Source: Sabellastarte sp. h YS-2021
Lineage: Eukaryota > Annelida > Polychaeta > Sabellida > Sabellidae
Direction of reading: 5' to 3'
Length of the DNA stretch: 64,000 bases
NCBI GenBank assembly: GCA_964017235.1
Contig: OZ024933.1
Location: 55,906,255 to 55,970,254, forward strand
Shown: positions 22,201 through 63,844 of the stretch, one piece after another
Numbering within the stretch: the first letter of the stretch is position 1
Layout of the letters: each line of letters opens with the position of its first letter
Program-made: the position numbers and the translations under genes
Notes under the pieces: generated by a model
Told to the model about the DNA's origin: nothing
Seen by the model: the letters and a program-made list of their open reading frames with translations, nothing else
Database searches by the model: none

Positions 22201-25200
22201 GCCTCTTTTGTATCAACAACTCTATGGAGGTCAAAGTCGGAACGCTGACTATTGCGAGGGACTTTTGGATCCTGGAAGTTCCTTCCTTCATGACTAGAAA
22301 TGCTACTGAATGGCCGATTGCTTGGTGTGGAAACAGAGGGATCAAAATGATCATCAGAAGATTTGCTTCTTATGATGGGCATCCGTTCTGGTATATTATG
22401 GCTTCTGGCACTGTCAGGGGCAGTATTCTCAGACCGTGGGATGATCCTACCTCTTGGTGATGGGGCACCAGATTGGGTTTTCGGTTTTGGAGCAATTGTT
22501 GGCCTGTCCTTAGGAATCACTACCAATGATTTTGATGATACATCATGCTTCAATTGTTCCTCCAATGGAAAATGTGCATTATGGTTTAGAGCAGTTGATG
22601 TAGGTGTATTTGTCAAGTTGGAAGAACTTTGAGACTGCATAGGTGTTCTTGCTTTTGTTGAAGCAGTGTTGTATTGAGCAGAATTTGTAAGTTCTGAAAT
22701 TGGTAGACGTGGACTAGCAATCTGAGTATTATTTTTATCATACTTCTTTGGTTGAAACAAAGTTTCTGACTGTTCAAAGAGCTTTTTCTTGGCATGAACA
22801 GATGCCAATTCAGATATTTCTTTATCCTCTTTTTCCCCATAGCTTAATATGTCTCCCACAGATTTACTTGTTGGTAATGTACCATCAGGCTTGTGTATTG
22901 GAGTCATTACACTTGGAGAGTTCCATTTTTCCAGATCGGCCAATGACTGGATCTTGGCCTGGACAGTCATTGGTTCAGGTTCATGGCCCTTGACAATATC
23001 TCTTGAAACTGGCCGTGGTATTTCCCACGGCCTACTTTTATGAGATCCTGGATTCTGCAGATTTTGATAGCTTCTTAATACTCTGAATTCCGACCCATTT
23101 GTATTATCTTTTTCTTTCAATGTAGCCACATTTCTCTGAGTATTTGATGATACATTGTCCTCTGTCTTATTCCCAGCAGTTTCATACCTTTTGTGTATTG
23201 TAATATTTATTTCAGGAGATTTTACAGTGTCCGATGGATTAAAATTAGCTTTGTCCATCTGATTAAGTGCTGGGCCTGATTTACTTTTCTGTAATGCAAA
23301 GACTTCTGCAGATCTTGGTGGTTTTGGTGGAGGAACATCTGCTCCTGATGAAGATGTACCGGCTATTTGATCCTGATAAGGCTTTTTCAAATACTGATGC
23401 AGCTGACTCTCAGATATTGAAGAAGGCACCTTCTTATCATTGTGGCTTGCTTTTGGCATTGTGTCATTTGTATCATGAACAACTCCTTTAGATTGTGACA
23501 TTGGTTTCTGGCGAACTACTGTTGGCTCTTTCCTCTGATTATTTATATAGTTCTGCTGATTAGCACTCATACCTAGAGGCATGTCTTGTTCAGAAGACTG
23601 TATCATATTGTCATTGTATCGGTCTGCATTCACATAATCATGTCGCCCACTCATTTTATCATCTCCCCCAATATTCACTGCAGCATAATAGCTGTCCCTG
23701 GTTCTGGAAGCAGATTCTAAGTATTCAAATTCATCTTGATGTTTCATAAGTTTTGTTTCAATCTGAGAGCCTGAGATCACCTTGGGCTTCTTTCCCCTCC
23801 TACCCCCTTTTGAACTCAGCCCTTCACCTTTCAGACTGGACTGGTAAGTGTCCACATTGGTTTCAACATTAGGTTTCTTAGATGCTGTCTCCTTTTTCTT
23901 AACTTTACTCTTTACAGGCTCATGCTTTTCAAAACTTCCATCTAGGCTGGCCTCAACAATCTTCTCACCCCAAGGCTGATGGGATTTCAACTGAGGTTGT
24001 TTCACCTCATACATATTGACAGCTGACCTGTAGCTTTCTCGCTTGTGGACTGGCTTCCTTGGTTTACGCTCCTTTTGAATCTCTTCCTCCATCACAGCAT
24101 CAATATCTGTCTCTAGCAAGTGGCTCTCACTCTTTGTTCTCTGGGCAGCCAACTCTTTCCGTTTTTTTGTACTCCCCACTGGTACCAAGCCCATAATTTC
24201 ATCAATGTCAGTTTCCAGGAAGTCACCAGTGCTGCGATTTCTAACCAAGGCATGCTGTATGCTTTCCTGGCTTGTATTTAAAATGCCAGTTTGATGTTTG
24301 TTTAGATCATCTTTCCTCTTGCGGCCACTGCTTCTTTGTTTTTGATTCCTAGTATTCTGGAAACTTTGAGCTGACCTTGAATCCTGCTGACCTTTCCCAT
24401 GAACATCTTCGCCACTGACCTGCTGACGATGATACCTTTGCCTTGATCTTCCTGACGACCTCTTTTGGCTGTTTCTTACATTAGACTCTCTGCTGAACTC
24501 TGGCCTACTTGATACATTTGGTGAATTACTTTTACCCTCTTGTTCAAACACCTCAGCATGGTCTAAATGATCAGACCTACTGTGTCTTGTGTGATGGGTC
24601 ATATTCTCTGAAGATGGCCTGCCTCTTGGTGGTAAACCTTGATGATGTTGTGCATCCACCCTTCCTAACATGTCCTCTTCGCTGCTATGCCTCCTGAGTA
24701 AGTTATCAGTACTGGAATTTTTGGAACTACTTTTACTGAGGGAGTACTTTGCCTCAGCATCCATACTGAGATTAATAAGCCACTTGCTCTGGTTAAAGAT
24801 GGCATCTCGGTAGCTGTCTTTCTTCTTATGCATGGTTGAGAACCTTCCTGCCTCATCCAAACTTCTGTTACGAACATGGATGATAGGGCGCAATGTGACT
24901 GTAGCCTCTGAAGATTCTACAATGTGCAGAAAAAGTTACATTTTATACACAACGAATTAGAACTCTTTTCAGTTCCCTAAAATGTTTTAAAGGAATACTT
25001 TTATCAACAAGCAATCAGTGCCCGTGAACGGGCTCTGTGTCAGCTGACTGTGTGGTTTGAGTTTCAGTGACAAAAGAAAAGGAAACAAAAGTTGTGCCAT
25101 GCAAATGGTATTTAGAAGGAAAGTAACAAGGCAACTGTTGAGGTGTAAAAAGTAGGGTAAAAACATATTTAAACAAAATACTGCAAATGCAATAGTTTTT

Positions 25201-61449: not shown

Positions 61450-63844
61450 ATTCAGAATTGAGAATTTTAAGTATGTGATTATCAATTGAAATGAGTTTGT
61501 AACTGTAGGAGCTGTGTCAAAATTAAGGCAAGTTGAATAGAACTGGGCTAGTTGAGAGTTAAAAATCCCCTATTTTTACTACATAAGGCTATAATTTCAT
61601 TAATATTTGGGACTTAAAGCTCACCAGAAAATAACAGTGTCCATTTTGCCTACTTGAATATGTTTAACCAGTTTCATATTAAAAAGTTAAAAACTCAGCA
61701 AGCAGAGAGATAACACACAAAAATAAGTTCTTAAAAGCCTAAGATAGCCATAACATTATTAATATTCAAAATTTAAATAGACAGGCACTTCCTTTGAAAA
61801 ATTCAAAGATTTCAGCTCTATGAGCCACATAGTTTGACAGTTACAGGGCTTTAAAGTGGCATAATATCCATAAATTGGGTTTCTGTGGGCATTTTACAAT
61901 TGTTAAAGAGACCTTAGCAATTAAACTACAGAACTGAAACTTTTTGGGGGGCATACACAACAAACAAAAATTATATATAATACAGTTTAACACTTGTCAC
62001 ACTAAGCATTTCCAAATAACAGGGCAAAATACAGAAAAAAATGTCAAAAAAGGTCACTTGGGCAAGTGTCTATGGCCCTCATACACAGGTTAAATGTCTA
62101 CTAAAAGCCTTGATTTTCGGCACATGTGAAAAGGACATAATAATGCATTCCCAGATGGGATTTCAGCTCAATCAATCACATAGTTTAACAGTCACAGGGC
62201 TTAAAGGTGGCAAAAAGTCCAAATATTGGGTCTCTGTGGGCCTTTTAGAGATCTCGATGTGGCCTTCAAATTAAAGCTTCAGACTTAAAATCTGCTACAT
62301 ACTAAGACTACACATAGAATATGTATCTAATAATAAAGTTTGAAACTTCTCAGACTCACCATTTCCAAGTTACAGAGCAAAATATGTGAAAAATGTCTTA
62401 AAACGGTCACTCGGGTGGGTGTTAATGGTCCTCATACACAGTTTAAATGTCTACTTTAAGCCTTGATTTTTGGCACATGTAAAAAGAACATAATAATATA
62501 TTCTCAGATGAGATTTCAGCTCTATCAGTCACATAGTTTAACAGTCATGGGCCTTAAAACTGGCAAAAAGTCCAAATAGTGGGTCTCTATGGGGCCTTTT
62601 AGAGACCTCAATGTGGCCTTCAAATTAAAGCTTCAGACTTGAAATTTGTCACATACTAAGATTACACATAGAATATGTATCTAATACAGTTTGAAACGTC
62701 TCAGACTTACCATTTCCAAGTTACAGGGCAAAATATGTGAAAAATGTCTAAAAAGGGTCACTCGGGTGGGGATTTATGGTCCTCAAACACAGGTTAAATG
62801 TCTACTTAAAGCCTTGATTTTCGGCACATGTAAAAAGGACATAATAATGCATTCCCAGATGGGATTTTAGCTCCATCAATAACATAGTTTAACAGTCACT
62901 GGGCTTAAAGGTGGCAAAAAGTCCATATATTGGGTCTTTGGGAGCCCGTCAGAGACCTCAATTTGACCTTCAAATTAAAGCTTCAGACTTAAAATCTGTT
63001 ACATACTAACATTACACATAGAATATATATCTAATACAGTTTGAAACTTCTCAGACTTACCATTTCCAAGTTACAGAGCAAAATATGTGAAAAATGTCTT
63101 AAAAGGGTCACTCGGGTGGGTGTTTATGGTCCTCATACATGGGTTAAATGTCTATTAAAGGCCTAAATTTTGGAGTACATACAAGAAAAACATATTGATA
63201 TATTCTCAGATGATATTTCACTTAGATGAGAGACATAGTTTGAAAGCTACAGTGCTTGAAGATGGCAAAAAGTCCATAAATTGGGTCTCTGTGGGCAATT
63301 TTGAGATCTTAAGTCGGCCTAACAGGTAAACCTACAGCCTTTAAATTTTTCAGAGACAAGGATTACATATAAGAGTTACATCTAGTGCAGTTTGAGACTC
63401 ATCAGAATTACCACTTCCAAATTATAGGGCAAAATAAGTTTAAAATATAGGAAAAAAGTCCTAAGTGGGGTCTTTATGGGCCTCAAAGACAATTTTCTCC
63501 TCAACTTAAAGTCTTGATTTTCAGCACATGTACTAAGAATATATTAATGTGTTCTCAGGTAAAATTTGAGGCAGATAAGCCTCATAGTTTGTGACCTAGA
63601 GGGCTCTAAGTGGCCAAAAGTGCAATTTCTGACCTTAAGGTGGCCATAAGTTCTTTATTATTGGGAGTTTAAGGTCACCTTAAAATAGGGATCTTCCTTT
63701 GAGCATCCTTAACATGTGTACCAAGTTTGAAAAAAAATTAATCGTCTTTGAGTTATCGCGTCCACAAGGAAATTTCTACGGCGGCGGTGGCGCGACGGAC
63801 CTGAATCCAATATATCCCCGACTTTCGTCTGGGGATATAATTAT
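61450..63844. repeat. Y right-part duplication, copy 2
   Basis: Partner of 58790-61371 in the same orientation, without the hAT. Array markers lie near 62092, 62447, 62800 and 63145 (about 350 bp apart). It ends with a second right hairpin and an ATAATT edge. Confidence 0.85.

Follow-up and report, generated by a model that had tools for sequence, protein, structure and literature searches.

The stretch of DNA analysed here, 64,000 nucleotides (nt) of contig OZ024933.1 of the sabellid annelid Sabellastarte sp. h YS-2021 (the window), carries, from position 25008 to position 63839, elements of six repeat families, called T, X, Z, W, V and Y, which are non-autonomous Helentrons (HINEs) and whose detected ends in the window all share one orientation. 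The six families have the same end layout as a Helentron in the same genome that has coding capacity and a sequence pair of its own, and three of them (T, Y and V), which are unrelated in sequence, share domains of polarity of some hundred kilobases (kb) in the portion of contig C1 that was sampled, at one end of it.

At the left end of the families a hairpin is followed a few bases inward by a subterminal repeat and then by the tandem core, whilst in five families (X, Z, W, V and Y) the right end consists of a simple repeat rich in GC together with a palindrome that includes an inverted copy of the subterminal repeat. A sequence-only reading of the window had proposed such end pairs for all six families, with the simple repeat and the right-end hairpin in five of the six, and this is borne out, all six pairs being recovered in the window by a pair search and both ends being folded computationally. 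What was called the left end is the 3' end and the right end is the 5' end, because the Helentron with the same layout fixes the polarity. Strands are given in the Helentron sense, a minus element having its 3' end at the lower coordinate, and the elements are as follows.

25008 to 27892, minus strand: T element (HINE), 3' end at 25008, X1 nested inside; drawn from its ends and the flank of other T copies.
26610 to 27545, minus strand: X1 element (HINE), complete, inside T; paired ends, with an empty site in other T copies.
32022 to 33530, minus strand: X2, left (3') end and an array of 146 base pairs (bp), 5' palindrome missing; right border approximate.
35888 to 41574, minus strand: Z element (HINE), ACGC simple repeat at 41483-41524 and 5' palindrome at about 41541-41573; a second two-ended copy is in L090.
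43136 to 43991, minus strand: X3, which has the left (3') end and the array but lacks the 5' end; its right border is approximate.
46923 to 50909, minus strand: W element (HINE-like), whose real 3' terminus is uncertain and could sit more to the left or be absent from this copy.
53408 to 55180, minus strand: V element (HINE), from its ends in the window; of six copies fetched, four have both ends.
56972 to 63839, minus strand: outer Y element (HINE), from its ends in the window; a Y insertion with both junctions and an empty site is on contig C11.
57922 to 61366, minus strand: inner Y element, which the order of the ends places inside the outer Y.

The features by which HINEs are recognised are present at these ends. 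Family-specific subterminal inverted repeats (subTIRs) lie at both ends in all six families, with X and V strengthened by other copies, and a 3' palindrome or hairpin is found in T, X, V, W and Y, the fold in Z being weak. The 5' complementary repeat with a microsatellite is found in X, Z, W, V and Y, and CTAG or CTTG stands ahead of the TT at the 3' end in T, Z, V and Y. When set against pairs of random 60-base stretches, a repeat pair as well matched as that of T, Z, Y or W is seldom met, that of X is marginal, and V has no exact match; the end pairs of X and V are secured because other genomic copies carry them. The families had also been thought to be unrelated to one another, which holds for T, Y and V, whose longest common stretch is at most 32 bases, whilst the idea of six mutually unrelated cores was given up on finding the T and Z cores to be related at about 65-74%. 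The sequence-only observation as a whole is confirmed in part, most of it being right.

Position 51876 was considered as a fourth X and rejected, the X hairpin being lacking there. Another HINE-like left end does occupy about 51855-53260, where a hairpin is followed by TACCCCACA at 51876 and by a 147-bp array at 52656-53255, and no right end for it was seen before V begins. The 147-bp core is met again at L029:2404-3169, where a T-type left end continues into it in place of the T core, an arrangement that is possibly an exchange of cores between families.

Co-occurrence of left and right ends across the genome was a check set by the sequence-only reading, and it was seen in copies of X, T, V, Z and Y, so that discrete copies are on record for five families. 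In the 1.5 kb examined at each locus, the X right end is found in correct order and orientation in 21 of 30 loci that were retrieved with the X left end (the window copy included) and was not found in 9, whilst the T right end is present in 3 of 7 other T copies. Both ends are also present in 4 of the 6 V copies, in the one other copy of Z (L090, 3.8 kb apart) and in the single Y insertion examined, on C11. No W with both ends was seen outside the window; L007 and L051 carry its left end and L042 its right end, which is absent from the 4.4 kb read in L007. Similarity searches with the left ends of W and Y returned nothing because these end words are too common; Y was mapped in the genome by an exact left-end pattern of 38 bases, and exact patterns were also used for T and V. 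Exact left ends number 6,931 for Y (38-base pattern) and 8,598 for T in 1.79 gigabases (Gb), and these very high copy numbers are probably recent.

The target site is seen most cleanly in Y. On C11 a Y copy interrupts the Rep frame of L012, the ends of the filled site being CCAAAACTAG and GGGGATATAATAAAC, and the empty counterpart in L014 and L015 reads CCAA^AATAAAC; the insertion point is an A-A step (T-T on the sense strand of the element) and no target duplication is needed. The base preceding CTAG is A in 20/20 further Y copies, drawn from the plus-strand places of the exact Y left-end list, with A before it in 19/20, and the base preceding CAAG is A in 20/20 other T copies, the next base out being A in 19/20. 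The T left end in L029, compared with the empty L028, fits a T-T target, as does the junction of X1 in T, which has empty sites in the T copies L002, L006, L036 and others but is ambiguous, sitting in a run of A. Insertion at T-T without duplication, as in HINEs, is clean for Y, compatible with the flanks of T and ambiguous for X. Short inverted repeats close to both ends are also a property of cut-and-paste or foldback miniature inverted-repeat transposable elements (MITEs), which have terminal inverted repeats and target duplications; however, the ends here are asymmetric, with the 3' hairpin outside the repeat and the 5' repeat at the very end, the empty Y site requires no duplication and a Helentron with the same layout exists in the genome, and it is hardly credible that the families are MITEs.

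That Helentron was reached through the Rep domain PF14214, which a profile search places at 24 positions in the genome. The copies at L014, L015 and L017 agree at about 99% of positions in a 3.5-kb comparison, and L015 has a single uninterrupted frame of 2245 amino acids (aa) with the domains DUF6570, Helitron_like_N, PIF1 helicase and a C-terminal endonuclease (Exo_endo_phos, at 24.2 bits 0.3 below the Pfam cut-off of 24.5), the combination of Rep, PIF1-type helicase and endonuclease in one protein being that of Helentrons. Its 3' end, ...CGCAACCCGCCTTTTGGGGCACCTCTGACCCTCTTGT|T, was fixed from the three copies. The 5' end lies upstream as TTTT|TAGG(C/T)GGGTTGCGTGTAACCAACCCGCCTATTAG, followed by a GTCC/GTCT microsatellite and then by tandem repeats of 164-187 bp, and is present twice, 600 bp apart, at C3:168666691 (L072) and 168667291 (L069), with tandem repeats following each; the inner 5' end is also found in L014 and L017. 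The 3' repeat agrees with the inner 5' copy at 12/12 bases and with the outer at 11/12 (one mismatch, AGGTGGG). A V array flanks the outer 5' end and the 3' end and is continuous once the flanks are joined, and with both junctions in one V array the element, inserted at a T-T step, therefore occupies C3:168666691-168678958, a length of 12,268 bp. The L015 element thus has the repeat pair of its own and the T-T insertion expected of a Helentron.

A search for an autonomous Rep/helicase element with matching ends had been proposed, and it gave an element with the same layout whose ends match none of the six families, so that the L015 Helentron is the partner of none of them. The 3' flanks of six Rep places (L084-L089) show the coding ends in four and the 3' end of a family in none, L084 having a degraded Z-like 5' end together with an X 5' end and L086 short fragments of the Y core. 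The Z-like end, at L084:1031-1520, lies about 0.4 kb past the end of the L009 Helentron coding match, and may be a neighbour or the relic of a partner.

It had been suggested that recognition is by structure, such that one transposition system reads the hairpins of all families regardless of subterminal sequence. In its favour, the layout is constant while the sequence varies, and the 3' flanks of 6 of the 24 Rep places yielded no autonomous element whose ends match those of one of the six families. Yet the two repeats match and change together within each family, as expected of sequence-specific partners, and the Helentron has its own matched pair, and for these reasons recognition by structure is unsupported; many divergent Rep lineages coexist at the 24 Rep places, which further makes it improbable. 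Each family would rather be moved in trans by a Rep-helicase-endonuclease protein that reads its own repeat pair, the tandem core being cargo.

Certain observations weigh against the HINE classification, the missing partner amongst them. T is without the simple repeat and without the right hairpin. For the joined flanks of the window T, Z, W, V and outer Y no spanning empty site was present in the fetched DNA, and none was found there for the inner Y. The 3' end of W is uncertain, because the similarity in L007 and L051 runs about 28 nt left of the window W hairpin, which may not be the outermost one.

The likeness to Helitrons and Helentrons that the sequence-only reading had pointed out is upheld by the co-occurrence of ends in other copies, by a T-T target without duplication that is clean in Y and by the Helentron of the same layout, and the elements are new in sequence, but the class is already known from oyster. 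The available text of PMC7492417 describes 11 Cg_HINE elements from the one genome of Crassostrea gigas, with TT targets and no duplication, and the breadth of families at this locus is not as unusual as was first thought. The Cg_HINE elements resemble the window families in the 5' subTIR, complementary inverted repeat and microsatellite, in central satellite-like repeats, in the 3' subTIR and palindrome, and in forming several families with unrelated modules whose partner Helentrons were not identified in oyster (PMC7492417). The likeness is by description and not by sequence, and in contrast to the domains below the available text of the same paper reports copies in both orientations and no domains. 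Bivalve Pearl elements, later classed as non-autonomous Helentrons, have short arrays of central repeats of about 160 bp (as cited in the available text of PMC7492417), a likeness that is again one of description rather than sequence. The HINE, DINE-1 and Helentron elements of arthropods share subTIRs, a 3' palindrome, a microsatellite and central repeats in some copies and the TT target, and have a Rep-helicase-endonuclease partner like the Helentron class here, although some of those partners are >95% identical to their HINEs (the portion of PMC4067079 available), whereas none is known for the six families. In the accessible portions of the main texts of two hard clam genome papers (PMC8905726, PMC7831173) the term 'Helitron' is absent. 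The elements can be used for repeat annotation, and one Helentron of the same end plan is mapped to both its junctions.

The agreement in orientation is not confined to the window. Among 15 other fetched loci with ends of at least two families (in L052 and L053 the second family was identified from an imperfect end) the families agree in 13 and disagree in 2 (L059 and L062). Polarity was followed further using the first 100 places, in coordinate order, of the 6,931 of Y, 8,598 of T, 1,777 of V and 13,823 of a control repeat, all of which fall on C1, reaching to 26.3 megabases (Mb) for Y, 29.9 for T, 80.3 for V and 14.5 for the control. The 100 copies of Y form 27 strand runs when 51 are expected (0/20,000 shuffles) and the 100 of T form 34 when 50 are expected (7/20,000), whilst T, Y and V pooled below 30 Mb (228 copies) form 52 against 115 (0/10,000). 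In the pool, pairs lie on the same strand in 26/29 cases at 0-5 kb, 54/57 at 5-20 kb, 125/137 at 20-50 kb, 147/194 at 50-100 kb, 224/309 at 100-200 kb, 171/290 at 200-300 kb, 214/580 at 300-500 kb and 566/1,130 at 0.5-1 Mb, these pairs not being independent of one another; the agreement below one half at 300-500 kb hints at an alternation of domains.

The domains, which were followed over C1:0.7-30 Mb, are common to the three families. Nearest cross-family neighbours within 50 kb are on the same strand in 39/43 cases for T-Y, 13/13 for V-Y and 15/15 for V-T, a level reached by 0/99 circular label shifts for each pair type, shifts which keep each family's own runs. A two-state model fitted to the pool gives a mean domain of 219 kb and puts 3.1% of copies on the minority strand; the values become 400 kb with 5.3% when the pool is confined to the part below 14.6 Mb, 314 kb with 6.5% for T alone and 242 kb with 2.3% for Y alone. 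In the longest stretch of uniform strand, 416 kb long, there are 19 copies, and all three families are among them. The sharpness of '+ to -' against '- to +' switches was compiled, and these are too few for an argument.

The control is a tRNA-like short interspersed element (SINE) that lies in the window at 31226-31546 and has 13,823 exact 21-mer cores in the genome; this single family served as the polarity control. Its first 100 places, at C1:0.6-14.5 Mb, form 48 runs against 51 expected (3,106/10,000 shuffles as low) and the two-state model gains nothing, whilst the 97 copies of T, Y and V in the same span form 19 runs against 48 expected (0/10,000). Such domains are not universal to repeats, because the SINE shows none in part of the same region.

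Several counts speak against domains of this kind. V alone forms 44 runs against 51 (1,850/20,000 shuffles), which is not significant, and gains little from the two-state model (twice the log-likelihood difference 1.0), V being sparse. T-T pairs closer than 5 kb are on the same strand in only 3/5 cases, and for neighbours scattered over the rest of the genome the counts are 4/4 at 5-50 kb and 3/7 at 50-200 kb, in a sample of 40/81 T rows, all 40 X, all 40 Z, 40/79 V and 15/24 Rep that excludes pairs starting in the window. The SINE and the Helentrons are on the same strand in 33/105 pairs at 100-200 kb and 78/230 at 300-500 kb, an unexplained shortfall from one half.

It could be that the domains reflect the composition of the target, nesting or segmental duplication. 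Nesting is common, with X in T and T in the Y core, and in element orientation A slightly outnumbers T in the flanks at 27/38 loci. However, the skew is weak, with A-A against T-T steps at only 6,856 to 6,160 (1.1 to 1), and further Helentrons that were not masked may contribute to it; composition seems too weak to explain the domains. Cross-family agreement at 20-50 kb is 19/19 for T-V, 11/11 for Y-V and 40/46 for T-Y, the SINE forms no domains in the portion of this region that its sample covers, and an origin of this kind is thus quite unlikely.

A further possibility is that the domains follow transcription, through R-loops or selection within genes, and not replication. The long minus-strand frames at 20-30 kb of the window agree with the Helentron sense strand, and coding strands can have an excess of T and G, as the flanks weakly show. 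The hard clam genome, in the text of PMC8905726 available, has 34,728 genes in 1.86 Gb, from which we compute one gene per about 54 kb, a density that may not be that of the host here; against this the domains of 219-400 kb are long, and single genes seem too short to explain them. With a SINE that shows no domains as well, transcription is a rather unlikely source of the polarity.

Replication-fork direction alternates and its scale is plausible for the domains. We infer insertion into single strands at forks, in a manner like that of IS200/IS605, in which the target would be the single-stranded lagging-strand template; the displaced single Helentron strand would be joined to a T-T step in that template and polarity would record the direction of the fork. 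IS200/IS605 elements move as single strands and are oriented by the direction of replication because they target the lagging-strand template (as set out in the available text of PMC5371812). The likeness is a working analogy in single-strand transposition and in an orientation that follows replication (PMC5371812, same portion), and the elements differ in that IS200/IS605 are bacterial with an unrelated transposase, the link to replication in the families here being drawn from their polarity. Taken whole, the best explanation is very probably one that combines HINE identity, mobilization in trans, shared polarity domains on C1 and a putative targeting of forks.

In its general form, the chances are about even that eukaryotic rolling-circle transposons target the single-stranded lagging-strand template at forks, their orientation being fork direction, and that the chromosomes of this animal would be split into domains, each a few hundred kb long, in which unrelated HINE families have a common polarity; the thousands of copies per family would then preserve, like a fossil map, the direction of forks in the germline, and origins and termination zones would lie at the switches. 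Were this so, a eukaryotic rolling-circle element would target single-stranded DNA at forks and germline replication direction could be read from sequence alone. No report of orientation domains of Helitrons or Helentrons was found in the open-access literature searched, though this does not prove that none exists. The kind of element is known, and it is the orientation rule that is the part worth following.

Two further features lie on the minus strand of the window. At 9482-14942 there is a possibly DIRS-like retroelement, in which reverse transcriptase and RNase H domains are joined by a weak match to a phage-integrase-type N domain. Long open frames of 1563 and 499 aa lie at 20244-24935 and 28313-29812, with T and X1 between them, and are probably exons of one host gene.

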